Origin: Sphingomonas parva (ex Maeng et al. 2020)
GTDB taxonomy: Bacteria > Pseudomonadota > Alphaproteobacteria > Sphingomonadales > Sphingomonadaceae
Length of the DNA stretch: 64,000 nucleotides
Assembly (NCBI RefSeq): GCF_004564275.1
Contig: NZ_SPDV01000029.1
Span: forward strand, 1-64,000
Direction of reading: 5' to 3'
A program made the translations under genes and the position numbers. Below, one piece after another: positions 1,797 through 37,880 of this stretch. The notes under the pieces were generated by a model that worked only from the letters and a program-made list of their open reading frames with translations, searched no databases and was not told the origin of the DNA. Each line of letters opens with the position of its first letter. Position 1 is the first letter of the stretch.

Positions 1797-2717
1797 TCAA
1801 CCCGCCTCCGGCATCAGGAGCGCCTCGCGCCCACGCCGTCGCTCGCGCGCCAGCGCCAGCCCGAGCATCAGGGCGAAGGCGCCGAGATAGACCGTGCCGG
1901 CCACCACCCACATCATCACCCCGCCGAGACTCTGATCGGAGATGCTGACCGCATCGGTCCCGTAGCTCCTGTAGAGCGGCGTCGAGGCGAGCGTGATCAG
2001 TGCCGCGAGCAGCCCTCCCTGGAAACCCATCAGGGCGAGGATCACGGCCGCTCCGGCACGGCTGAGCCGGCGGCCGCCGCTGGTCAGGATCACGCGCCAG
2101 AAGGAGAGCTCGGCGAGCAGGAAGAGCAGATGCTCGGCATCGTGCACGAGAGGATCACGCCGGGCCCATTCGTAGCTCGAGGGAAGATGCCAGAACCACA
2201 AGACAGCAATCGAGCTCAGGCAGACGAACCAGACCTCGGAGCCGTGCCGAGCGAGCGCCTTGACGCCCGGCAGGGCGGCGATGAAGCGCCCGGCCCGTCG
2301 ACGCGCCCGGAGCGGAAGCGCGTGCAGCATCACGACGTACCCCTGAGACGCGGCGAGCATCGGCGGCGCCGCAACCAGGAGCACGAGATGCTGGGCCATG
2401 TGAGCGGAGAAACGCGCGTCGGCGAGGTGATCGAACGGCGGCAGCAGGACGAAGGCGAGTGAGGCGATGCCGGCGACGAACAGGACCGCCCGCCAGGTTG
2501 GCACGGCCTTGCCGCCGCCGCGACGGCGCGGCAGGCGGCGCCAGCCCGCCGCGAAGGCGCTCAGCGCCAACGCGAGCAGTCCCGCGAGAAGCACATCGCC
2601 GGCTGACGCAGAAGGGTGCTCGTGGCCGTTGCCGTGCGCCCAAGCCGGCGACGACGCGGCGAAAAGCAGCCACGCCAGAAGGTGAGTGCGTACTAGAGCC
2701 ACGTGCCGGGCGCGCAT
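1797..2717 (-). CDS. ctaG: CtaG, caa3 oxidase assembly factor
   Basis: This 306-residue polytopic membrane protein belongs to the caa3_CtaG family, which helps assemble the copper centres of caa3-type oxidases. It has an N-terminal hydrophobic segment followed by a His-rich stretch (AHGNGHEHP). About seven membrane helices follow, with conserved features such as AQHLVLLVAAPPML, VWFVCLSSIAVLWFWHLP and HDAEHLLFLL. It is the last gene of the oxidase operon, and its start overlaps the end of the preceding gene by 25 bp. The start at 2717 begins MRARHVAL. Histidines in helices, as in AQH, HLP and HDAEH, are typical of the family. The position directly after the oxidase subunits supports the assignment. 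Confidence 0.85.
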   Translation of the reverse strand: MRARHVALVRTHLLAWLLFAASSPAWAHGNGHEHPSASAGDVLLAGLLALALSAFAAGWRRLPRRRGGGKAVPTWRAVLFVAGIASLAFVLLPPFDHLADARFSAHMAQHLVLLVAAPPMLAASQGYVVMLHALPLRARRRAGRFIAALPGVKALARHGSEVWFVCLSSIAVLWFWHLPSSYEWARRDPLVHDAEHLLFLLAELSFWRVILTSGGRRLSRAGAAVILALMGFQGGLLAALITLASTPLYRSYGTDAVSISDQSLGGVMMWVVAGTVYLGAFALMLGLALARERRRGREALLMPEAG

Positions 2718-3151
2718 CTTTGGAGGATGAGGAGCGCTGCCGCTTCTGCGGCGATCGCGACAAGGAAGATGCCGCTGACGATCAGCGCTGACACAGCCAT
2801 GAACCGAGTCCGCCCTTCGCCGACGTCGAGGAGAGTATGCCTGCCGCCCGCTTTCTCGCGCCGGCTGCGCCGCCAGGCGGCCCAAGCCAGCCAGATCCCA
2901 ACCGTGCCAGCGGCTAGGCTCGCCAGGTTGATGAGCAGGAGGAGCGTCCACAGACCTGGAACCACCTCCATGTCGACGGAGCTACCGCTTGGATCGCAGG
3001 CCACCGACGAAAGGGAATAAGAGGCGATCAACTGACCCAGCCAGGCGGTGGGCGCCAGGATGAGGGCGAGCAGCAGCCGCGGCGATGAGACGCGCTCGCG
3101 CTGCGGCGAAGGATGGCTGACCGCCGTCTCGGGCGCATCGCGGCTGCTCAT
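2693..3151 (-). CDS. four-helix membrane protein of the oxidase operon
   Basis: This 152-residue protein has four predicted membrane helices, at roughly 24-46, 64-93, 117-136 and the hydrophobic end at 134-146. A pair of cysteines (SVACDP and QRCAPG) would face the same side. It starts inside the stop codon of the subunit III gene (ATGA overlap) and overlaps the start of ctaG, so it is tightly coupled to the oxidase genes. I do not recognise a named family. It could be an accessory or subunit IV-like component of the oxidase. That role is inferred from position and topology only. Confidence 0.75.
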   Translation of the reverse strand: MSSRDAPETAVSHPSPQRERVSSPRLLLALILAPTAWLGQLIASYSLSSVACDPSGSSVDMEVVPGLWTLLLLINLASLAAGTVGIWLAWAAWRRSRREKAGGRHTLLDVGEGRTRFMAVSALIVSGIFLVAIAAEAAALLILQRCAPGTWL

Positions 3152-3747
3152 GGCTGCTGTGGGACAAGATAGATGGTGGTGAAGACGGCAAGCCAGACGA
3201 TGTCCACGAAGTGCCAGTAGATCCGGCCAAGCGCGAGCGGGAGGCTGGGCCGGCGGCGCAGCCGCCCCTGCCAGGACCAGACCGCAAGGACCAGCAACGC
3301 GAACAGGCCGGCGAGGACGTGCGCCAGGTGAAAGCCCGTCAGCGTGAAATAGGAGCAGGCGTAAGCATTGCTGTCGAACGAGAAGGGCTTGTTGGACCAT
3401 TCCTTCAGCTGCACGAGGACGAAGGCGCCGCCCATCGCCGCGGTGACGAGCAGCGCCGGCAGCGGCGAGCCCGCCCTTGCCGTCTCGTAGCGCCGCAATC
3501 CGATCTCGAGCACGATGCTGCTCCCCAGCAGCAGGAACGTATTCGGCAGCGCAAGCGCGAGCGCCGGTGCGCCCCCCGGCGGCCAGTCCCCGACTGCCTG
3601 CGCACCGAGATAGCCGTGGCTGAAAATAAGATAGGCGAAGAGAATGCCCTCTGTCGCCACAAGGCAGAGCATTCCCCACCAGCCGGTGGAAAGCCGCCCC
3701 GTCCCGTTGACCGGCAGCAACCGTGCCGCGACCCTGATCTCAGGCAT
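3148..3747 (-). CDS. ctaE: cytochrome c oxidase subunit III
   Basis: The 199-residue product is a five-helix COX3 protein, as in bacterial caa3/bo3 oxidases (shorter than the seven-helix mitochondrial form). Family landmarks include GWWGMLCLVATEGILFA, with the conserved acidic residue of helix III, FTLTGFHLAHVLAGL, and the C-terminal YWHFVDIVWLAVFTTIYL. It carries no redox centre and stabilises subunit I in the inner membrane. The start at 3747 lies 8 bp inside the end of ctaD, and its stop overlaps the next start, so translation along the operon is coupled. Confidence 0.92.
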   Translation of the reverse strand: MPEIRVAARLLPVNGTGRLSTGWWGMLCLVATEGILFAYLIFSHGYLGAQAVGDWPPGGAPALALALPNTFLLLGSSIVLEIGLRRYETARAGSPLPALLVTAAMGGAFVLVQLKEWSNKPFSFDSNAYACSYFTLTGFHLAHVLAGLFALLVLAVWSWQGRLRRRPSLPLALGRIYWHFVDIVWLAVFTTIYLVPQQP

Positions 3748-5668
3748 AGATCCTCGCTTTCTGCGCTTCGACCGGCGGTGCCGGCGCGAGCCAGGCGACC
3801 AGGACGCCGAGCGCTCCGGCAAGGCCGAGCCCGGCAATCACCCAGGCATGGGCCAGAAGGCCGAGGAACAGCAGCGTGACGCACAGGGCGAGCCCGAGCG
3901 GCAGCAGGCTGTCACCCGGCATGCGCAGGATGACGTTCGGCTCGGCGTCCATCGGCGTCGTGCCGATCGTCTCGCGACCGACGTCGAGCAGATAGCCTCG
4001 ATCGAGCTGCGATCGCTCCTCCACTTCCTCCAGCCTGTCCTCCCACAAGGGGTGGCGGCTGGCGACGATCGGGATGATGTCGAAATTGTGCGGCGGCGGC
4101 GGCGAGCTCGTCGCCCATTCGAGCGTCGGCGCATCCCAAGGATTGGGCCCGGCGGGTGCACCCCGGGAGAGGCTCAGCACCAGGTTGACGAGGAACAGAA
4201 GGATCCCCGCCGCGAACAGGAAGGCGCCAACGCTGATCAGAAGATTCCAGCCGCCGAGGCCGAGATCGGCGGGGTAGGTGTAGACCCGGCGCGGCATGCC
4301 CTCGAGTCCGACAACGTGCATCGGGAAGAAGGCGATGTTGAAGCCGATGAACATCGTCCAGAACGACCAACGTCCCAGACGCTCGCCCATCATCCGGCCG
4401 GTCATTTTGGGAAACCAGTAATAGATGCCACCGACGACCGGGAAGAGGTTGATCCCCAGGAGGACGTAATGGAGGTGGGCGACGACGAAGTAGGTGTCGG
4501 TGAGCTGCCAGTCCAGCGCCGCGGAGGCGGTCATGAACCCCGAGACGCCGCCAATCACGAACAGGATCACGAAGCCGGCGAAGAACAGGAACGGTGTCCT
4601 GAACACCGGCTGCCCGGTCCAGATCGTCGCGAGCCAGGAAAAGACTGCGATCGCGCTGGGGATGGCGATGATGATGCTGGCCGCGCTGAAGAAGGAGATC
4701 GCCATCGCCGGGAGCCCGGTGGCAAACATGTGGTGCACCCAGACGCCGAAGCCGATGACCATGGTCGTGACGGTCGCCAGCGCGACCGCGGTGTACCCGA
4801 CGAGGGGCCGCCGACAAAAGACGGGGAGCGCGTCCGATACGATGCCCATCGCAGGCAGCACGAGCGCGTAGACCCAGGGATGGCCGAAGGCCCAGAACAG
4901 GTGCTGCCAGAGCAGCGGCTGACCGTGTCCCGACACCTCGAAGAAATGCGCGCCGAATGAGCGGTCGAGCCACAGCATCAGACATGCGAGGCTCACCGAG
5001 GGCACCGCTAGAAGGTTCGCCGCCGAGGCGGTCACCGTGCCCCAGACGAGGATCGGCATGCGGTTAATCGACATGCCCGGGGCGCGGGTGCGAAGCAATG
5101 TCACCACGAAGTTCGCCGAGCCGACGGCGGTCGAGATGCCGAGGAAGATCAGCCCGAGCGCATAGATGTCGATGTTGATGCCCGGATCATATTCCCGGCT
5201 GGTGTAAGGGACGTAGTTGAACCACCCGCCGTTCGGCGCCTGTCCCAGCGGCACGCCCACGTAGAGGAACACCCCCGAGAGCAGGTAGAGCCAGTAGGAC
5301 AGAGCGTTGACCCGCGGAAAGGCCATGTCGCGGGACCCGAGCATCAGCGGCCACAGATAATTGCTGAAACCTGAGAGCACGGGCAGCGCGTAGAGGAAGA
5401 TCATGGTAACGCCGTGCAGCGAGAAGAGCTGGTCGTATTGCTCCGGCGCAAGCAGCTTCATCCCTGGCTGCGCCAGCTGCACGCGCATGACGAGCGCCTC
5501 GACGCCGCCGATCAGCAGGAAGACGATCGACGTGACGAGGTAGCGTATGCCGATCTGCTTGTGGTCGACCGTCGCGAACCAGCCGTAGACCCCCGGCGCG
5601 GTTTCCCACGTGGCCCGAAGCTTCTCACGTTCCTGGTCGGGCAGCCGGTTGCGCGCGATCGTGGCCAT
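3740..5668 (-). CDS. ctaD: cytochrome c oxidase subunit I, proton-channel variant
   Basis: This 642-residue protein is the catalytic subunit of a heme-copper oxidase. It reduces oxygen at the heme-copper site in the inner membrane. All metal ligands are present: His85 and His400 (low-spin heme), His398 (high-spin heme), His263, His312 and His313 (copper B), and the cross-linking Tyr267. D-channel entry residues Asp114, Asn103 and Asn121 are kept, as is the propionate pair RR in GMPRRVY. However, the copper motif reads GHPWVY instead of GHPEVY, so Trp265 replaces the usual D-channel glutamate. Position 341, which aligns exactly with the K-channel lysine, is alanine (IPSAIAVFSW). The C-terminal part has extra membrane helices. 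The gene lies 9 bp after subunit II. A working oxygen-reducing site is expected; normal proton pumping is not. Confidence 0.95.
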   Translation of the reverse strand: MATIARNRLPDQEREKLRATWETAPGVYGWFATVDHKQIGIRYLVTSIVFLLIGGVEALVMRVQLAQPGMKLLAPEQYDQLFSLHGVTMIFLYALPVLSGFSNYLWPLMLGSRDMAFPRVNALSYWLYLLSGVFLYVGVPLGQAPNGGWFNYVPYTSREYDPGINIDIYALGLIFLGISTAVGSANFVVTLLRTRAPGMSINRMPILVWGTVTASAANLLAVPSVSLACLMLWLDRSFGAHFFEVSGHGQPLLWQHLFWAFGHPWVYALVLPAMGIVSDALPVFCRRPLVGYTAVALATVTTMVIGFGVWVHHMFATGLPAMAISFFSAASIIIAIPSAIAVFSWLATIWTGQPVFRTPFLFFAGFVILFVIGGVSGFMTASAALDWQLTDTYFVVAHLHYVLLGINLFPVVGGIYYWFPKMTGRMMGERLGRWSFWTMFIGFNIAFFPMHVVGLEGMPRRVYTYPADLGLGGWNLLISVGAFLFAAGILLFLVNLVLSLSRGAPAGPNPWDAPTLEWATSSPPPPHNFDIIPIVASRHPLWEDRLEEVEERSQLDRGYLLDVGRETIGTTPMDAEPNVILRMPGDSLLPLGLALCVTLLFLGLLAHAWVIAGLGLAGALGVLVAWLAPAPPVEAQKARIYA

Positions 5669-5677
5669 GACGTCTCC

Positions 5678-6672
5678 TCAGCGGGTTTCGAGATAAGCGA
5701 CGAGCGGCTGCATCTCGCCGGGCGGAAGGTCGATGTCGGGCATGCGCGCCCCCGGCTTCACCGCCTGCGGGTGCGCAATCCAGCGGGCGAGGTTCGCGGG
5801 CGTGTTGGGCAAGGTTCCCGAGGCCAGGGTCGCGCGACCGGAGAGGTTGGTGAGATCAGGACCGTAGATGCCGCCGGACTCGGTGCCCCGGATTGCGTGG
5901 CAGGCGCTGCAGCGTCGGGCGAACACGCGGTACCCTGGCGCGATTGAGGCTCCGGTCGAAGCCCCCGCAAGCTGCCGCCTGCGCCACGCGGCGAATTGCG
6001 CCGGCGGCTCCGCCACGACCCGAAAGGCCATCAGCGCATGTTCTACGCCGCAATATTCCATGCACTGACCGCGATAGACGCCGGGGGTTCTCGCCTCGAT
6101 CCACATGCTGTTGACACGCCCTGGGATGACATCGGTCTTCCCGGCGAGCTTCGGCACCCAGAAGCTATGGATCACGTCGTCTGCCCGAAGTTCGAGCCTG
6201 ACCGGTACGTTGGTCGGTATGTGGATCTCGCTCGCGGTACGGAACGTCCCATCGGGCTCCGCTCCGGGGTAAGTGGCCTCCCACCACCATTGGTGGCCGG
6301 TCACCGATATGGCGAGTGGCGTGACCCCGCCGCCAGGTTGCGCAACCGCCCTCAGCGTCAGCAACGTCCAAATCGCCGATGCGATGAGGGCCACGGTCGA
6401 GACCGAGACGCCGATGTAGATCCAGCGCATTCCGCCGGCATCGCGGCGCACCGCGAGCCGGTCCGCGTCCCCCCCCGGCGCCGTCGCAAGATTGCCCCAG
6501 CGAGCAAGGCGCCCACGACGATTACGACCACCACCGAGATGATGAGCAATCCCCAGCCGAGCTGCGCGAGGCGACCGGCGATCGGAGCGTCGGCGTCGAG
6601 ATAGGACAGAGGGCGAGCGGCGCACCCGGTGAGACAGATCGAAGGCGCCGTGAGCAGGCACCGGCGAGTCAT
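5678..6672 (-). CDS. ctaC: caa3 oxidase subunit II with cytochrome c domain, frameshifted
   Basis: Subunit II takes electrons from cytochrome c through the CuA centre. The N-terminus (from 6672) has a lipoprotein signal ending LTGC and a first membrane helix. The rest, in another frame, has the second helix, the cupredoxin domain with CuA ligands (VIHSFW, CMEYCGVEHALM) and a C-terminal heme-binding domain (CSACH, with Met in GARMPD), which makes this a caa3 type. The frames join at a run of eight G on the coding strand (plus 6469-6476). One more G would restore a 331-residue protein. This may be a sequencing error, a real mutation or a slippage site. Restarting at ATG 6431 would lose the signal and first helix. 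The gene starts inside the stop of the cytochrome c gene (ATGA). Confidence 0.85.
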
Positions 6673-7271
6673 TTGTCGCCCCCGGCGCCCTCGCCCGAAT
6701 CGCCGTGGGCGGGGCTCTTGCTCGAGCCCGCGCCTCGTTCATCGGCAAGGTCACCCTGCAGACCTGCGTGATAGGCTTCGGTGGGGAAGCTGCCGCCGAG
6801 GGTCTCGATATAGCGGGTGAGCTGCCAGATCGACCTTTGCGGGAGTGCCCGGCCCCATGCCGGCATTCCCTTGGGCCGGCCTTCGTAGATCGACTTGTAG
6901 ATCTGTACGGGTGTGCCGCCATAGCGCCAGTGCGCATCGGTGAGATCGGGGCCCATCCCACCCTTGGCAGCATAACCGTGGCAGCCGGCGCAGTTCATCT
7001 CCTTGTAGAGACGCTCGCCTTCGACGACGGCACCCGGATCACTCTCCAGAGGATTGGCAAGCCGCCCCGGCATCGTCGCCTTTGCCGCCCCGGCGAGGTC
7101 GCCGAGCGGCACCCTGGCCGGCGCGCCCTCCGGTGGAAGCGCGGAAAGGGAGGCGAGGCTCAGTGAGCGACCTCTAGCCCGCCCGTCCGTATGCACAAGC
7201 CAACCCGTGACGCCGGAGCCGAGCACCGCACAAACGGCGCCTGTGACGATCGTGCGCGCCAGATGGTTCAT
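6669..7271 (-). CDS. membrane-anchored class I cytochrome c
   Basis: This 200-residue protein has an uncleaved-looking N-terminal hydrophobic segment (TIVTGAVCAVLGSGVTGWLV) that should hold it at the outer face of the inner membrane. A single heme domain follows, with CAGCH at 94-98 and an axial methionine at 136 in GMPAWG. The heme domain resembles those of cbb3 subunit III and of cytochromes that accept electrons from PQQ dehydrogenases. The C-terminal 35 residues are polar, Gly/Ser-rich and probably disordered. It lies 3 bp after the PQQ dehydrogenase gene and overlaps the start of ctaC. The natural reading is an electron shuttle from the dehydrogenase to the oxidase CuA centre; this is inferred from gene order. 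Confidence 0.88.
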   Translation of the reverse strand: MNHLARTIVTGAVCAVLGSGVTGWLVHTDGRARGRSLSLASLSALPPEGAPARVPLGDLAGAAKATMPGRLANPLESDPGAVVEGERLYKEMNCAGCHGYAAKGGMGPDLTDAHWRYGGTPVQIYKSIYEGRPKGMPAWGRALPQRSIWQLTRYIETLGGSFPTEAYHAGLQGDLADERGAGSSKSPAHGDSGEGAGGDK

Positions 7272-7274
7272 GGC

Positions 7275-9176
7275 TCAGTGCCTGCCTTTCTGGGTCTCGT
7301 CCGACTGGCTTGCGGCGGCACCCGCGGCGGTCACCATCATGCCGGGGCCACTGCCCGGCGAGGCGCCGTCGATCGAGAAGACGTAGAGAGTTCCGCCGCG
7401 CGCGGGGAAGCCTGGCTGGTCAGCCGAGACCATCGCTGCGCCGCCGACGCCGGCGAATACGGCGACATACTGCCTGCCGTCGGGGCCGGTGTAGCTAATC
7501 GGCTGGCTGACGATCCCGGAGGAAAGTTTCTGCGACCACAGTACCTTTCCAGTCCAGGCGTCGACCGCGCGAAACCAGCCGTCGACGGTGCCGTAGAAGA
7601 CGACGTCGCCGGCGGTCGCAAGCGTGCCGCTCATGACCATGAACTTCTCGGGTATCTGCCAGAGCTTGCGCCCGTGCACCGGATCCCAGGCGATGAAACC
7701 GCCCCAATCGTCGCCCGAGGCCGGATACCGGACCATTTCCATCCCGTCATAGGGCGTGCCGGGGATGTAGGAGACCGCGTGGTCGGTGAGGTCCATGCAC
7801 AGGTTGAAGATGCCGGTGTAGACGAGGCCGGTGCGCGGGCTGAACGCGGGCGGCTGCCAGTCCTTGGTGCCGATGTCGGGCGGACAGACGCGCTGGAGCT
7901 TCTGGCCGATCTTCGGCTCCATCGCGGCCCTGACGATGGGCCGGCCGGTGCCGAGATCGATCCCGTCCGCCCAGTTCTGATAGGCATATTGCGCGGCGAC
8001 CAGCACCTCGCCGCTGTTCCTGTCGATCGTGTAGGCGAAGCCGTTGCGATCGAAGTGGACGGCGACGTCCCGGCGTACGCCCTTCCACGGGATGTTCAGC
8101 AGCATGTGCTCGTTGACGCCGTCATAGTCCCACTGGTCGTGCGGCGTGTATTGATAGGCCCACTTTGCCATGCCCGTATCAGCGTCACGGGCGAAGACGG
8201 CGCTCGTCCACAGATTGTCGCCGGGGCGCTGGTCGGGCACCCTCGGTCCTGGATTGCTGGTTCCGTAGAACACGAGGTTCGTCTTCGGATCGTACGACAC
8301 GAAGCCCCAGGTCGCGGCCGCGCCGGTCTTCCACATCCCGGCCGGCCAGGTCTTCACGCCGAGATCCTTGCCCCGCATCCACGGGTAGTAAGGGCGGAAA
8401 TCGGGACCGATGCGCGTCATCGTATCGGGACCGATCCCATAGGCCCGCCACAGGAGCTTGCCGGTTGCGACATCGAGCGCGGCAAGCCAGCCGCTGACCC
8501 CCATCTCGCCACCCGAATTGCCGACCAGAACCTTGTCGCCGGCGACGAAGGCCGCCATCGTCATCGTGACGCCCTTCTCGACGTCGGCGAGCTTGGTTCT
8601 CCAGACCTCCTTGCCGGTCTCCGCGTCGAGCGCGATGGTGTGCGCGTCGAGCAGGTTGTAGATCAGCTTGCCGTCCGCATAGGCCCAGCCGCGAAGCACT
8701 GCGTCGCAGCACGCTTTGCCGAGCGCGATCGGCGAGGTCTTCGGATCATAGGTCCACTTGATCGGTGCGCCAGGCTTCGAGAGATCGAGCGCGTAGGCCA
8801 CGTTGGGATAGGGGGAGACGACATACATCGTGTCGCCCACCACCAGGGGCGGTCCCTCGTGCCCGTAGAGAGTGCCGTCGGAGAAGGTCCATGCCACCTT
8901 GAGGCGCGCGACGTTTGATCGATCAACCTGCCTCAGCGGACTGTAACGGGTGTTCGCATAGTCCCTCGCCGGACTCTTCCACTCGCCCGGAGGATCGTTC
9001 GGCGCGAAGTCCGCGGTCGCACCGGTGAGGGAGGTCGGCGGCGCCGCAGCGGCAGGCGCAGGATTGCTGTACGCGGTGTAGGCGGCATATCCGCCGATCA
9101 GCGGGAATATCGATCCGACAGCCGCCGCGACTATCAGGCCAGACCGACTTGTCGCATTTCCCGATGCAGATGCCAT
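7275..9176 (-). CDS. PQQ-dependent alcohol dehydrogenase, lanthanide-type
   Basis: This 633-residue eight-bladed propeller quinoprotein of the methanol/ethanol dehydrogenase family oxidises alcohols to aldehydes in the periplasm. The vicinal disulfide pair is Cys156-Cys157 (KACCDAV). Metal and cofactor ligands include Glu224 (SGGEMGV) and Asn308 (SNPGP). The catalytic Asp350 is in HDQWDYDGVNE, followed two residues later by Asp352, the marker of lanthanide-dependent (XoxF/PedH-like) enzymes. Tryptophan-dock motifs such as SGGFIAWDP-type repeats are visible. Instead of a cleavable signal it has a membrane helix near residues 12-35, so it is probably anchored. The start at 9176 has a ribosome site (AGAGG) about ten bases upstream. 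It is the first gene of the oxidase operon. Substrate is unknown. Confidence 0.92.
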   Translation of the reverse strand: MASASGNATSRSGLIVAAAVGSIFPLIGGYAAYTAYSNPAPAAAAPPTSLTGATADFAPNDPPGEWKSPARDYANTRYSPLRQVDRSNVARLKVAWTFSDGTLYGHEGPPLVVGDTMYVVSPYPNVAYALDLSKPGAPIKWTYDPKTSPIALGKACCDAVLRGWAYADGKLIYNLLDAHTIALDAETGKEVWRTKLADVEKGVTMTMAAFVAGDKVLVGNSGGEMGVSGWLAALDVATGKLLWRAYGIGPDTMTRIGPDFRPYYPWMRGKDLGVKTWPAGMWKTGAAATWGFVSYDPKTNLVFYGTSNPGPRVPDQRPGDNLWTSAVFARDADTGMAKWAYQYTPHDQWDYDGVNEHMLLNIPWKGVRRDVAVHFDRNGFAYTIDRNSGEVLVAAQYAYQNWADGIDLGTGRPIVRAAMEPKIGQKLQRVCPPDIGTKDWQPPAFSPRTGLVYTGIFNLCMDLTDHAVSYIPGTPYDGMEMVRYPASGDDWGGFIAWDPVHGRKLWQIPEKFMVMSGTLATAGDVVFYGTVDGWFRAVDAWTGKVLWSQKLSSGIVSQPISYTGPDGRQYVAVFAGVGGAAMVSADQPGFPARGGTLYVFSIDGASPGSGPGMMVTAAGAAASQSDETQKGRH

Positions 9177-9261
9177 GCGCCCGCCTCTTCGAACAAGTTC
9201 GACAAAGATGAGCAGAAGCAATATTCTACATGATCAAGTCGTTCAATTGGCGGCAAAAGAA

Positions 9262-9821: not shown

Positions 9822-10631
9822 TTAGAAGGCGTGGACGCCAAGCTTCGCTTCGTCCCGGTCCGGGTAAGGATCAGGACCGCAGAACGCGTCTATCCGCGCC
9901 CGGTCCCGAACGATGATCCGGCTGCCCCGGACGTGCAGGCCATTCTCGGCAAGCAGCTGAAGCGTCCGCGACAGGGTTTCCGCCGTCATTCCGACCCGCG
10001 CCGCCAGATGGCGCTTCGGCACCGGCAGCTCGCCACTCTCGCTGAAAGGTCCTTCGTCCACCAGCCTCAGCAGAAAGGCCGCGAGCCGCTGGGGCGCGGA
10101 ACGGCATTTGAGGTCCAAGATGTGCCTGACCGCCATCCGCCACTGGCCGCCGATCAACTGGATCATCCGCATGGCGAGATCGGGCGTGCGGAGCGCCTCC
10201 TCGTGCAGAACTCCAGCATCGAGCAGCAGGAGCCGCGCCGAGGTGAGCACGCGAGCCGAGGTCAGATAAGGTTCCTGGAAGAGTGCCGCGACCGGCACGA
10301 AGACGTCGCCGCCGTTGGCAAGCAGGACGCCGCACTCGCGGGGACCATCGACCCGCGAGAGCTCCACGATCCCGCTCAGCAGGACGTGCACGACCTTGCC
10401 CACCTCTCCTTGGTTGAAGAGGACGCTTCCCGGAGGGAAGCGCTTGACGCTCGCCTTGGAAAGGAGCCGGTCTGTTACGTCGGACGCGAGACCGGCGAAC
10501 AACGGAACTCTGGAGGCAATTTCCTTGTCGCCGTCCTTCATGCGTGCCCGCTCCAAAGCTCGCTGCCGCGGCTGACCTCCAAGCTCTACTCCGCTGAAAG
10601 AATGGTCCATAAAATCCTGAACAGTCAACAT
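9822..10631 (-). CDS. Crp/Fnr-family regulator with FNR-type DNA recognition
   Basis: This 269-residue regulator has a cyclic-nucleotide-binding-like sensor domain (about residues 40-150, with PPGSVLFNQGEVG and a long dimer helix). A winged helix-turn-helix follows (about 185-245). The recognition helix GMTAETLSR carries the Glu..Ser-Arg pattern that reads TTGA half-sites in FNR, ANR and DNR. There is no N-terminal cysteine cluster, so it is not a classical Fe-S oxygen sensor. DNR-like heme or nitric oxide sensing, or another ligand, is possible. The start at 10631 has a good ribosome site (GAGGTGACC); a second start at 10541 is possible, since the conserved domain begins after it. It is the best candidate to bind the FNR-type sites in this region. 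Confidence 0.88.
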   Translation of the reverse strand: MLTVQDFMDHSFSGVELGGQPRQRALERARMKDGDKEIASRVPLFAGLASDVTDRLLSKASVKRFPPGSVLFNQGEVGKVVHVLLSGIVELSRVDGPRECGVLLANGGDVFVPVAALFQEPYLTSARVLTSARLLLLDAGVLHEEALRTPDLAMRMIQLIGGQWRMAVRHILDLKCRSAPQRLAAFLLRLVDEGPFSESGELPVPKRHLAARVGMTAETLSRTLQLLAENGLHVRGSRIIVRDRARIDAFCGPDPYPDRDEAKLGVHAF

Positions 10632-11238: not shown

Positions 11239-11750
11239 GCAAACGACGCCTCTCGACAAGCCCAGCGAGAGCCGTGCTTTGAATGCTCCGCAATCGACTG
11301 AACTGAGCTGGACATGACGATTGTCCCGGTTCGCTCCCGCTCCCCATCTTGCCCCGTTTGAGCTTCATTGCTTGATTGCTCCGTGGAAGTCTGCGGAACG
11401 CCATCACGAGGAAAGGCCGGGCGGGGTCCCGGCGAAGAGAAGGCGCTAAGCAACGGGACCCGGCGGTGGTCGAAGCCGATCGATCCTCGGCCGCGGACGA
11501 CCGAGGATCGACCGGGCAGTCATCGGCACATCGTGCTCGTCGACCGCGCCGCGCCGCTACAATCCCCTTTCGGCAACGACGCCAAACCAACGACAGAGAG
11601 GCGGGTGCGGCCGCAAAACTTGTCTGACGTCAACTCGTGCAACCCGTGAAGACGTTCCACGTCTCTGACCGCGCCCGGCAGGTGGGACGCGCCGGTCGCT
11701 GCACCGGATGACGACCGCCCTCTACCGCCGAGGAGCCGAAAGAGTCCTCA
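11239..11750. other. gap with a strong hairpin
   Basis: No convincing gene is visible here. The main feature is an inverted repeat at 11480-11511, with 11-bp arms around CGATCCTCGG and CCGAGGATCG and a 10-nt loop. It could end transcription of the coiled-coil gene or of an RNA, but no T run follows. A half-degenerate FNR-like dyad (TTGTC-TGAC-GTCAA) lies at 11620-11633. Confidence 0.4.
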
Positions 11751-12488
11751 TCAGCGCGCAATAAGCAGCAACAGCGCGAAGCCTGCCGCGCCGGCAGCCA
11801 GAGCGCCGAAGCGGCTTTCCCGATCCTCCGGCAGTTCCTCTTTCAAGACGTTCAGCACGAGTCCCCCGGCAAGAAAGCCGAAGACGAGCGCGATCAGCAG
11901 GGGCGAAAGCGCGAAGCCTGTCCCGATCAGCCAGCCGAGCGGCGGCGCGGCAGCGAGCAGCCATCTCCCTGTCCTGTCATAGGCGTCGCCGTGATATTCC
12001 CGCAGCCCCTGGTCATTGACGACGAAGTGCAGACCGAGCGCGATCGCATAGATGACGAGCCCGCGGAGGTCCGCTTCCTCGCGATGGACGAGCAGATAGC
12101 CAATCAGGACGGAATAGACCGCGTAGGAGGAGAGATGGATCCAGAACACGCGCGGCGAGGAGCCGGGTTGCCCGACATCCCGATTCTTGCGCTTCGACTG
12201 ACGCACAAGGCGATCGAGGCCATAGAACACCACGAGCCCGAGAAGGGCCGCCAGATAGATGTGCGATTCGACGGCGAAGGCGTTGGCGCCGATGTGGCGC
12301 GCGCTCGCCTTCTGCCATTCCGCCAGTTCCGGCAGGAGGTGAACGAACACATAGGCAAGGGAAACCCCTCCAGCGAGAGACAGCCAGATGCTTCGCGGCG
12401 TACGTTGAAGGAAGCGCAGATCCTTGCCGACGATATGGACGAGCGCGAAGGCGGCAGCGATTATTCCAGTAAGGAGCAGGTTCGGCAT
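11751..12488 (-). CDS. ZIP-like integral membrane protein
   Basis: This 245-residue protein has about eight membrane helices. It distantly resembles ZIP metal transporters: VFVHLLPELAE in the second helix, LHFVVNDQGLRE in the fourth, and a C-terminal GGLVLNVLKEELPEDRES. The standard HEIPHE-type metal motif is not obvious, so transport of zinc or another metal is unproven. The start has a good ribosome site (GGAGGGTAC). A 20-bp perfect dyad containing TTGAG-CGAG-CTCAA lies about 85 bp upstream (12563-12582), at a distance suitable for class II activation. It may belong to the same regulon as its neighbours. Confidence 0.7.
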   Translation of the reverse strand: MPNLLLTGIIAAAFALVHIVGKDLRFLQRTPRSIWLSLAGGVSLAYVFVHLLPELAEWQKASARHIGANAFAVESHIYLAALLGLVVFYGLDRLVRQSKRKNRDVGQPGSSPRVFWIHLSSYAVYSVLIGYLLVHREEADLRGLVIYAIALGLHFVVNDQGLREYHGDAYDRTGRWLLAAAPPLGWLIGTGFALSPLLIALVFGFLAGGLVLNVLKEELPEDRESRFGALAAGAAGFALLLLIAR

Positions 12489-12562
12489 GTACCCTCCGTT
12501 TCCGGCAGCCGATGGCTTGCCGGGTGGTGATGTCCGGCGGAGAACCCCGGGACCGGTTTCGC

Positions 12563-12582
12563 CACTTGAGCGAGCTCAAGTG
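12563..12582. promoter_or_regulatory. 20-bp perfect dyad, FNR-like core
   Basis: CACTTGAGC-GA-GCTCAAGTG is a perfect inverted repeat. Its core TTGA-N6-TCAA has FNR spacing, but the half-sites end in G/C rather than the usual Y/R. It is centred 84 bp upstream of the ZIP-like gene and overlaps the last codons of the PRC-barrel gene. Confidence 0.45.
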
Positions 12583-12995
12583 GCACTCGCCTCTCGCGGC
12601 TCTCTAGAAGTCCCGTAGAAGCGCCGCAGGCGCGCCTCGTAGTCGCTGCCCCACGCGGGCGCAGTTCCATGCTCGTAGCTCGGTGCGCGGCAGAGTCTCC
12701 TGCGATCCACCTCCGCGGTGAACACCTGCCGGCGGACGTCGAACCGAAGCCACTCCCACGGGACTGGGTAGAAGCGTTCGCCGATGGGGAACAAGCCGCC
12801 GAGAGTGAGCACCGCGGCCCGGACGCAGCCGGTGCAAAGGTCGACCATCAGGTACCGAACACTACCAATCCTGGCTCCGCTCGCATCCAAGACGGCCACG
12901 GAGTCTATCGGGGCGCGCACGACGAGGCGTGAGTGCGGCGGCTTGCCCGGCAGGATCGACCCCTGCGCCTCCGCCCCGAGCACATGCCCGCTCAT
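12576..12995 (-). CDS. PRC-barrel domain protein
   Basis: This 139-residue protein has a PRC-barrel-like core (VAVLDASGARIGSVRYLMVD, then GERFYPVPWEWLRFD). It aligns well with the protein at 20910-21287, including the ending APSYE.G.....Y...R..YYG, so the two are paralogues. The two cysteines in DLCTGCVR are unusual for the fold and absent from the paralogue. PRC-barrels act in photosynthetic reaction centres and RNA processing, but small stand-alone versions are mostly uncharacterised stress proteins. ATG 12995 is chosen; a GTG at 13016 is also possible. No signal peptide, so cytoplasmic. Confidence 0.75.
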   Translation of the reverse strand: MSGHVLGAEAQGSILPGKPPHSRLVVRAPIDSVAVLDASGARIGSVRYLMVDLCTGCVRAAVLTLGGLFPIGERFYPVPWEWLRFDVRRQVFTAEVDRRRLCRAPSYEHGTAPAWGSDYEARLRRFYGTSREPREASAT

Positions 12996-13176
12996 CACGC
13001 GGCGCCGAACGCGCACCTGCGCTGCTCACCGCCTGTAGATGCAGCGCGAAGCAACGCGATCGCGTTCGTGAAGCAAACGAGATCCGTGGGCGGACTGGCC
13101 AAACGACGCGTGCCCGCGCCACCGGCCAGCTTTGACCTTCGAACGCTCGGAGAGGACGCGTGCATGCGCGCATCCT

Positions 13177-13806
13177 TCATTCTGCCGACTCCCGCGGCAT
13201 GCGCCAGGTCAGCCGCCAATAGCCTATGCCCTGCGCCAGGAGCATGATCCCGCCGATGACAGCGATCACCCCCACGATTGCGGCCAGGGAGAGCATCGTC
13301 CATTCGGGAGCAACCGCGAGAAGCACGAGCACCGCAAGAGCCGCGCAGATCGACAGGGCGCCATAGAGGATCAGCAGCAGCTCACCCCGGGTTTCCTTCC
13401 GGTGGCGAACCGCCGAAAGGATCTCGACTCCCCCGGTTGCGGCGCACCAGATCGCAATCAGTACCGCGCCGAGGACGCCGACGCTCACCATCGCGAGGAA
13501 GGGCGCCGCGAGGAAGGCCGCGCCCACGAGAACCCCGGCGACTCCCCGAAAGATCAGAGCGACTCGGCGGCTGCGGTGAGAACGGCCGGCGGCGAACAAG
13601 GCCATCATGCCGTCCGAAAGCGCGTAGACGGCAATGATGATCGTCATGCCGAACCAGGCGCGAAACGGGAATGCCACAGCGAGCAGACCAATCAGGACGG
13701 CGACGATGCCGCGGATCATGAACCACGATGGCTCGTGGGGCGCCGTCCATGACCCGAACTCATTTCCGACTGTGTGTTGCTCACCCAAGCTCGCCCTGCC
13801 CGTCAT
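13177..13806 (-). CDS. HdeD-family membrane protein
   Basis: The 209-residue product has six membrane helices and matches the HdeD/DUF308 family, named for an acid-resistance membrane protein of enterobacteria. The conserved pattern of paired helices is visible (WFMIRGIVAVLIGLLAVAFP and LIFRGVAGVLVGAAFLAAP repeat the same motif R.I/V.VL.G). It sits in the inner membrane; the biochemical role is unknown. A strong ribosome site (AAGGAGGCGATCA) marks the start at 13806. Upstream lie a near-match FNR site (13863-13876) and a perfect one (13960-13973), so low-oxygen control is plausible. Confidence 0.88.
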   Translation of the reverse strand: MTGRASLGEQHTVGNEFGSWTAPHEPSWFMIRGIVAVLIGLLAVAFPFRAWFGMTIIIAVYALSDGMMALFAAGRSHRSRRVALIFRGVAGVLVGAAFLAAPFLAMVSVGVLGAVLIAIWCAATGGVEILSAVRHRKETRGELLLILYGALSICAALAVLVLLAVAPEWTMLSLAAIVGVIAVIGGIMLLAQGIGYWRLTWRMPRESAE

Positions 13807-13862
13807 TGATCGCCTCCTTTTCCGACGATTGCACGCGTAAGAGGGGCCCTGCGTTCCGATGA

Positions 13863-13876
13863 TTGAGGTTCGTCAA
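13863..13876. promoter_or_regulatory. near-match FNR-type site
   Basis: TTGAG-GTTC-GTCAA differs from consensus at one base. Its centre is 63 bp upstream of the hdeD-like start, so at -41.5 it would give a leader of about 22 nt covering the ribosome site. Together with the perfect site 97 bp away it forms a pair in the divergent promoter. Confidence 0.4.
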
Positions 13877-36811: not shown

Positions 36812-36965
36812 CTATTTCGGGGACACTATACTAAATACGTCCAGCGCCCTCCCGCCGGGGCCGCGCCACGCGTCTAATTAGTATAGTGTCCCCGAAATAG
36901 GTAACGGGCAGCGCCCTCCTGCTGGGGCCGCGCCACGCCTGATTAGTATAGTGTCCCCGAAATAG
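36812..36965. repeat. left REP-type repeat cluster
   Basis: Three copies of a 25-bp element (TTTCGGGGACACTATACTAA core): plus orientation at 36812-36836, minus at 36875-36900 and 36941-36965. The first two form a large inverted repeat. The spacers between copies (GCGCCCTCC..GGGGCCGCGCCACGC) are themselves repeated. The third copy encodes the end of the transposase gene. Confidence 0.85.
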
Positions 36966-37665
36966 CGTGGGCAGCAGCTTTGGGTTTGGGTCCGCGCCGG
37001 GCGGGCGCGAGGGGGCGCGCCAGGGCCGTTTCCTGCGCCGCGATCCACGGCGCCGCGGCGAGCGGGCGGCCAGTGCGCAGCCGCGCCTCGATCGCCGCGG
37101 CCAGCCGCTCGCCCTCGACCGTCGCCCCGCCCGCCTCGAGCCCGTAGCGCAGCATCGCCCGCCAGTTGGGCACGTGTCGGGAGAGCGCCGCCACGTCGGT
37201 CAGCGGATCGCCGGCGGCGCGGCGCCCGGCGAGATGGCTGCGCGCGCTCGACCAGCGCCAATCCTCGGCCCGCGCGGCGAGGCCCGCCGCGACCGGGTTC
37301 CGCTCGACGTAGCGGACCGCCGCCATCAGATGGGCGTCGTCCATCGGGTAGCTCGCGAACCTGCCCTGGAAGAGGTAGCCCCGCCATCCCTCGCGCGCGT
37401 TGACGTGGCTGGTGTAGCGGCGGTGGGCCTCGGCGAGCGCGCCGCGCAGGCCGTCCGCCGTCGCCGGCACCAGCACGAGATGGACGTGGTTGTCCATCAG
37501 GCACCAGGCCAGGCAGGTCACGTTCGCGGCCTCGCAGCCGGCGCGGAGCAGGCGAAGATAGAGCGCTCGGTCGGAATCGCCGAAGAATATGGGAAGGCGG
37601 CGATTGCCGCGATGGGTGACGTGGTGCGCCACGCCTGGAACGACGATGCGCGCGATCCGGGCCAT
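36943..37665 (-). CDS. REP-associated tyrosine transposase (RAYT)
   Basis: This 240-residue protein is a Y1/HUH-family transposase (TnpA-REP). The N-terminal motif HHVTHRGNRR is followed by the metal-binding HUH motif in DNHVHLVLVPA near residue 57. A typical YLFQGRFASYPMDDAHLMAA region and RYVERNPVAAGLAARAEDWR follow. RAYTs are single-domain, non-autonomous-looking transposases that act on short REP elements. ATG 37665 (AAGAGGCG upstream) is chosen. The last six residues, ISGTLY, and the TAA stop come from the adjacent repeat. It is flanked on both sides by clusters of the same repeat. Confidence 0.9.
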   Translation of the reverse strand: MARIARIVVPGVAHHVTHRGNRRLPIFFGDSDRALYLRLLRAGCEAANVTCLAWCLMDNHVHLVLVPATADGLRGALAEAHRRYTSHVNAREGWRGYLFQGRFASYPMDDAHLMAAVRYVERNPVAAGLAARAEDWRWSSARSHLAGRRAAGDPLTDVAALSRHVPNWRAMLRYGLEAGGATVEGERLAAAIEARLRTGRPLAAAPWIAAQETALARPLAPARRGPKPKAAAHAISGTLY

Positions 37666-37717
37666 CGCCTCTTGTACCAGATCGGCGCGGGGGCGGCCAA
37701 TTCGCAGAAGGTCCGCG

Positions 37718-37880
37718 GATTTCGGGGACACCGGATTTCGGAGACACTATACTAATTGCCTCCAGCATCGCTCCGCCCGGGGAGAACCGTGGCGGATTTC
37801 GGGGACACTATACTAATTACCTCCAGCATCGCTCCGCCCGGGGAGAGCCGTCGGTAATTAGTATAGTGTCCCCGAATTAG
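37718..37880. repeat. right REP-type repeat cluster
   Basis: Four copies of the same element: a partial one at 37718-37731, plus copies at 37734-37757 and 37795-37818, and a minus copy at 37855-37880. The plus copies are each followed by the same spacer (CCTCCAGCATCGCTCCGCCC), giving a direct repeat of about 60 bp. The minus copy supplies the end of the following gene. Confidence 0.85.

Follow-up and report, generated by a model that had tools for sequence, protein, structure and literature searches.

The window, by which we mean the whole stretch of 64,000 nucleotides, carries a run of cytochrome oxidase genes, all of them on the minus strand. Upstream of the oxidase genes lies a Crp/Fnr-type regulator (9822-10631), followed by a PQQ-dependent alcohol dehydrogenase of the methanol/ethanol family (7275-9221), which bears the motifs HDQWDYDGV and ACCD, and by a small c-type cytochrome (6669-7271). 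Subunit II starts with a lipobox-like LTGC and the first helix (6477-6672), in a frame that differs from that of the remainder (5678-6476), which holds the second helix, the CuA domain (CMEYCGVEHALM) and a fused cytochrome c domain. Subunit I is an open frame of 642 amino acids (3740-5668), the end of which is overlapped by subunit III (3148-3747, start inferred at MPEIRVA). The run continues with a small membrane protein (2693-3151), the frame of which gave no family match in a profile search, and with a CtaG (caa3) assembly protein (1797-2717), the starts of both being inferred. Elsewhere in the window, two arrays of 61-67 bp repeats lie about 800 bp apart (36842-37851); their units look like inverted copies of one another and are perhaps the ends of a mobile element.

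Subunit I and its closest relatives

By its sequence, subunit I is a heme-copper oxidase of family A, in which the COX1 profile, the His ligands and the Tyr that is normally cross-linked are all present. It matches PF00115 with 508 bits in a profile search, and its score against the NCBIfam CtaD_CoxA equivalog is 692.3 bits, above the cut-off of 670.75. The best solved aa3 chain reached 493 bits in phmmer and the ba3 chains about 40-46. In the phmmer alignments with the solved mycobacterial aa3 chains, GHPWVY of the window pairs gaplessly with GHPEVY, and PSAIAVFSW with PTGIKFFNW. On the numbering of the R. sphaeroides chain 1M56_A (Rs), Trp265 (codon TGG, 4874-4876, minus strand) falls in the column of Glu286 and Ala341 (codon GCA, 4646-4648, minus strand) in that of Lys362. 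This bears out the original prediction, which had given no strand and in which Trp265 replaces the gating Glu of the D channel and Ala341 stands at the position of the K-channel Lys; the local alignment shift that it had named as its possible undoing, one restoring a Glu or a Lys, was not found, both sites being free of gaps. The D-channel entry of A1-type oxidases (Asp132, Asn121 and Asn139) is present as Asp114, Asn103 and Asn121, and so are the metal ligands, again as foreseen. His85, 263, 312, 313, 398 and 400 and Tyr267 are kept in all of the 25 closest rows of our alignment, window included. Superfamily nitric oxide reductases have lost the Tyr beside the CuB His; in these 25 rows the corresponding Tyr267 is always retained.

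The alignment comprises 123 subunits I, including that of the window. It was built from 80 loci, the best 80 of at least 585 confirmed relatives, and from the loci of further genomes; 17 loci were left out by choice. We grouped the rows by their residues in the Glu286 and Lys362 columns, and the sizes of these groups reflect sampling by likeness to the window: 25 rows have Trp with a small residue (18 Ala, 4 Gly, 2 Thr and 1 Ser; hereafter Trp/small), 6 are Trp/Gln, 4 Asp/Gln, 39 Glu/Gln and 48 Glu/Lys, and one row of the Tyr-Ser type (L109) is Ala/Lys. The Tyr-Ser substitute, which A2-type oxidases have before the CuB His, had been predicted to be absent. The window indeed has Phe-Gly there, and the corresponding columns 282 and 283 of the 31 Trp rows hold Phe in 30 and Trp in one, and Gly in 28 and Ala in three, respectively.

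From 73 of the 123 aligned rows, stripped of the two trait columns, we built a tree and rooted it on a quinol-oxidase-like row from the window's genome (L004). It was obtained by a quick search, with SH-aLRT as the only support and no bootstrap. The original prediction had proposed a tree as a check and suggested that the enzyme may belong to a deviating clade. In our tree the 31 Trp rows form a branch of their own (support 99), inside which the 25 small-residue rows are grouped with support 97, and the 51 Lys-less rows of the tree are held together with support 100. A sequencing error behind Trp265 is ruled out by this Trp-only branch, which is recovered with the trait columns removed. Overall, the tree requires a single change from Lys to another residue. 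The Glu site changes three times, once to Trp, and the Lys site twice if Gln is scored separately from the small residues. These counts imply that Lys was lost first, that Glu was then replaced by Trp, and that Gln gave way to a small residue afterwards. Long branches lead to L004, L006 and L022, and the order of the forks within the Lys-less group (Trp, Glu/Gln, Asp/Gln and the row L055) is left unsettled.

The Trp loci are found in several lineages of Proteobacteria (Hyphomicrobiales, Sphingomonas, Caulobacter, Methyloligella, Nitrosospira, Nitrosovibrio, Noviherbaspirillum and Lysobacter) as well as in Gemmatimonadota and Acidobacteriota, several of them being metagenome bins. The 31 Trp rows include near-copies: L044 and L148 are identical, and L040 and L042 almost so. 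The latter two come from one bin series and are labelled Burkholderiales and Gemmatimonadaceae, which means that one of the labels could be mistaken; Gemmatimonadota are also represented by the Trp loci L051 and L057. We rejected GHPWVY as a motif for a census, because it matched 34 of 385 alphaproteobacterial genomes, yet just 3 of the 30 inspected matches were subunit I. The other 27 were other open frames, mostly of one family, presumably an RNA methyltransferase; four matches without a locus, that of the window's own genome among them, were outside the 30 inspected. With a tighter motif, six of 398 Pseudomonadota genomes matched, the own genome included, and all six matches were subunit I. 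In four Micromonosporaceae rows (L058, L059, L060 and L073) an Asp occupies the Glu286 column and a Gln the Lys362 column, with D132, N121 and N139 kept.

The two proton channels

The K channel is entered at Glu101 of subunit II (PMC8239185), which sits in the motif E..WT of helix 2. Among the readable partners of rows with the Lys, L109 counted, 43 of 44 have this motif (the exception is L006), each match having been inspected. It is absent from all 57 readable partners of Lys-less rows, namely 38 Glu/Gln, 4 Asp/Gln, 13 Trp/small and 2 Trp/Gln. A regular-expression match in L046 was discounted, since it falls in the loop after the helix. Outside the count are 12 Trp/small partners including that of the window, 4 of the 6 Trp/Gln, 1 Glu/Gln and 5 Glu/Lys; the 12 comprise six loci without the stretch and others without a match to the CuA pattern. 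Because the Lys of subunit I and the E..WT of subunit II are missing together, the K channel is, to judge from these residues, dismantled in both subunits. The suggestion of a deviating clade is thus confirmed and extended: the clade is supported and spans several phyla, its losses are ordered, and the K-channel Glu motif of subunit II is gone as well. The further suggestion, that the enzyme may reduce oxygen without pumping or over a different proton path, is plausible, given the loss of the canonical relay residues.

The window's subunit II likewise has no E..WT in helix 2. In this assembly the frame of that subunit changes at a run of eight G (6469-6476, minus strand), the cause being either an error of sequencing or a genuine break of the gene. 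Helix 2 and CuA are in one frame in the readable relatives, among them 13 of the 24 Trp/small rows besides the window, and the argument for the clade is independent of the window's own copy of subunit II.

The picture is different for the D channel. The residues D132, N139, S200, N207 and Y33 are present in every one of the 25 Trp/small rows, N121 is kept in 23 rows and S142 in 24, and S201 is replaced by Thr in 23. Eight of nine D-channel sites are at least 90% conserved in these rows, compared to 259 of 518 columns overall (hypergeometric test, 0.019). The corresponding figures are six of nine over all 31 Trp rows (0.10), six of nine in the Glu/Lys rows (0.015) and three of nine in the Glu/Gln rows (0.64), and the statistic is modest. 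N121 is lost in five of the six Trp/Gln rows and in two of the 25 Trp/small rows. The lower D channel of the Trp/small rows is thus kept about as in ordinary pumps, which argues that it may still carry protons. The original statement that both proton-channel key residues are lacking is therefore right for the Glu and the Lys, and overdrawn if it is read as the loss of both channels.

The Glu/Gln rows (L003, L005, L061 and 36 more) have taken another course. Asp132 is missing in 28 of the 39 and N121 in 38, L055 being the one that keeps it, and new Glu residues occur at Rs 117, 198 and 207. All three are found together in 34 of these 39 rows and in none of the other 83. Taken with the frequent lack of Asp132, this three-Glu set is apparently a rebuilt proton entry. 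As far as these columns tell, the two branches of one Lys-less group have diverged in the D channel, one keeping its lower part and the other acquiring new Glu residues.

Gene neighbourhood and related oxidases

We surveyed the fetched flanks of the 80 loci (the best 80 of at least 585 relatives) by tblastn. Ten of the 20 Trp loci have a relative of the PQQ dehydrogenase nearby (1e-20), at distances and on sides that differ among the loci: six of the 14 Trp/small loci and four of the six Trp/Gln loci. Of the 12 Trp loci whose flanks reach 5 kb or more in both directions, seven have it. Such relatives are found near 2 of 22 Glu/Gln loci and near none of the 4 Asp/Gln, 33 Glu/Lys and 1 other loci. 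The dehydrogenase is missing from the flanks of the remaining 10 Trp loci, five of which have at least 5 kb on either side. Near one Trp-type operon (L043), a large open frame at 11587-13869 resembles a molybdopterin oxidoreductase on inspection by eye, which suggests that other dehydrogenases may feed the Trp-type oxidase. The small membrane protein gave matches at 13 of 14 Trp/small, 2 of 6 Trp/Gln and none of 60 other loci, and one weak match in L060 (Asp/Gln) in a smaller tblastn search; the Crp/Fnr-type regulator had no tblastn match in the flanks of the 80 loci, so that its link to the operon is tentative. A search of 29 loci with one rough pattern showed the second Asp of HDQWDYDGV, which we take to be a signature of lanthanide use by the enzyme, in L044, L045 and the window.

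The genome has two matches to the PqqD family and a second PQQ dehydrogenase, which lies near a Glu/Gln subunit I on contig 11. Overall, it holds seven COX1-family genes, including Glu/Lys types (L001, L004 and L006) and two Glu/Gln copies of the rhizobial type. With such a complement, the cell could afford a weakly coupled extra oxidase.

The enzyme shares with A1-type aa3 and caa3 oxidases (R. sphaeroides 1M56, mycobacterial 6adq and 8hcr) the fold, the metal ligands, the Tyr of the His-Tyr pair, the lower D channel and a subunit II with CuA, but lacks Glu286, Lys362 and the Glu101 motif of subunit II. The AlphaFold2 model of subunit I (mean pLDDT 90.2, pTM 0.92) has 2yev as its best Foldseek match, and reaches a TM-score of 0.89 by target with 2gsm_A. 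The absence of Glu286 is a trait in common with the A2 type, represented by the Thermus caa3 oxidase 2yev, which we take to have no Glu286 and a Tyr-Ser motif, and likewise by L109 (YSHPAVY). However, the window has no Tyr-Ser, and L109 retains the Lys and the subunit II Glu motif. Members of the B and C families (ba3, cbb3) are also Glu-less at 286 and are listed with Ser at 359 and Thr or Gly at 362 (PMC12901375, Table 2), whereas the sequence and the D channel of the window are those of family A. The Glu/Gln rows of the rhizobial type resemble the window in that the Lys is replaced, in their case by Gln, and their subunit II motif is absent (38 of 38), but they keep Glu286 and are mostly without Asp132.

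With a PQQ dehydrogenase in the operon and extra C-terminal helices in subunit I, the locus may belong to COX operon type a-II, or A1 subtype a (Degli Esposti 2014, 2019). Type a-II is described as having a COX1-COX4 fusion and, often, a PQQ dehydrogenase in the operon (PMC4013037). The two additional C-terminal helices predicted in the model (residues 589-605 and 609-627) would fit such a fusion. Rhizobia are given as carriers of type a-II (PMC4013037) and also occur in the Lys-less group. The type is defined by gene order and fusion, and the main-text passages on it (PMC4013037, PMC6431628) are silent on the two residues. Variants and losses of the K channel are discussed for archaeal family A oxidases, with seven losses under one of two scenarios (PMC8239418, which cites a 2020 review by Degli Esposti for channel variants). 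We found no description of the Trp/Ala clade in the literature searched, outside which most subscription papers and supplements fell.

Proton route and its meaning

We infer a working, accessory caa3-like oxidase of family A that would draw the protons for its chemistry through a D channel without the Glu and pump few protons or none, a reading to which we give a probability of about 0.45. Electrons would pass from the periplasmic PQQ alcohol dehydrogenase to the small cytochrome c, then to heme c and CuA of subunit II, and through heme a to the heme a3-CuB site, where oxygen would be reduced to water. With its lower part kept and the K route dismantled, the D channel is the likeliest path for the chemical protons, which would enter at Asp114, move up the Asn, Ser and Thr lining and make the last step past Trp265 by way of water and hydroxyl groups, with no carboxylate. 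Without the Glu that stores and gates protons, and without the Lys, few or no protons would be pumped. The oxidase may thus act as a sink for the electrons of alcohol oxidation in the periplasm, alongside proper pumps in the same cell.

In normal family A enzymes, the D channel carries six of every eight protons and the K channel the other two, Glu286 is isolated and essential, and a change 3 Å from it slows proton transfer 50-100 fold (PMC8239185, PMC6934443); mutants without the channel-end residues lose activity (PMC8239185). As an isolated storing and gating Glu is absent here, pumping is likely weak or lost. Nothing in the Trp rows clearly stands in for the carboxylate of Glu286. At the position of Tyr93 (Rs 110), a Tyr occurs in 28 of 30 Trp rows and in none of 92 others of the set; we rejected it as a stand-in and keep it as a weak lead, since a mycobacterial aa3 oxidase that has the Glu has a Tyr there too, and since by helix counting position 110 faces away from the Glu286 neighbours M107 and I112 (PMC6934443, PMC12901375).

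Protons might instead follow a lysine-free, K-like route similar to that of the B and C families, through Ser278, Ser331, Ser338, Thr299 and Thr302 toward Tyr267, the D channel being a remnant. Ser or Thr occupies Rs 359 in all 31 Trp rows as opposed to 7 of 39 Glu/Gln rows, Rs 320 in all 31 and Rs 323 in 29 (the latter two only putatively facing the channel). This arrangement is much like that of the T. thermophilus and P. stutzeri enzymes, where 286 is not Glu, 359 is Ser and 362 is either Thr or Gly (PMC12901375, Table 2). However, 27 of 31 Trp rows have Ala at position 365, Ser or Thr at 323 is also frequent in the Glu/Gln rows (34 of 39), subunit II is without the entry Glu motif, and the lower D channel is conserved, as a remnant would not have to be. 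We therefore regard this route as possible but unlikely.

A full pump, in which the Glu is dispensable and its role is taken by another residue or by the H pathway, seems to us rather improbable. A Tyr engineered near position 286 permits pumping in mutants, and A2 oxidases use their Tyr-Ser motif; in the Trp clade, Tyr93, Thr213, Thr299 and Asn407 are clade-specific polar residues. A conserved H pathway has been argued for (PMC12901375), although the yeast oxidase is unaffected by changes in it, and R. sphaeroides is cited likewise (PMC6934443). In the window the Tyr-Ser pair is absent, and the Tyr93 column holds Tyr in mycobacterial aa3 oxidases as well.

Like cNOR, the enzyme might take its protons from the periplasm, and its turnover would then be electrically neutral. 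The key ionisable residue is missing from both cytoplasmic relays, and alcohol oxidation would release protons in the periplasm, but the D132, N139 and N207 columns are invariant in the 25 rows, and so are the ordinary residues of the periplasmic-side Arg pair and the Asp407 column, which leaves uptake from that side with a small chance. Least credible of all is that the protein no longer reduces oxygen or that the gene decays: the frame change of subunit II in this assembly would fit, but none of the 25 rows has lost a metal ligand or the cross-link Tyr, these rows have a mean pairwise identity of 0.72 with half of the columns at least 90% conserved as given above, and helix 2 and CuA of subunit II share a single frame in 13 of the 24 Trp/small rows besides the window.

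Returning to oxygen reduction through a Glu-free D channel, we propose, more tentatively, that the Trp rows are a natural multi-phylum clade that would reduce oxygen without an ionisable key relay residue in either channel, in which case Glu286 and Lys362 would be needed for pumping and not for the chemistry. The two residues are the basis of the models of proton uptake and pumping for the mitochondrial-type oxidase. A natural lineage from which first the Lys and then the Glu disappeared, together with the three-Glu branch, offers ready-made variants for studying residue roles. The oxidase of the Trp clade probably moves protons by a route that does without these two residues, and the annotation as CtaD, for which the family cut-off is reached, may overstate the energy yield of such strains.
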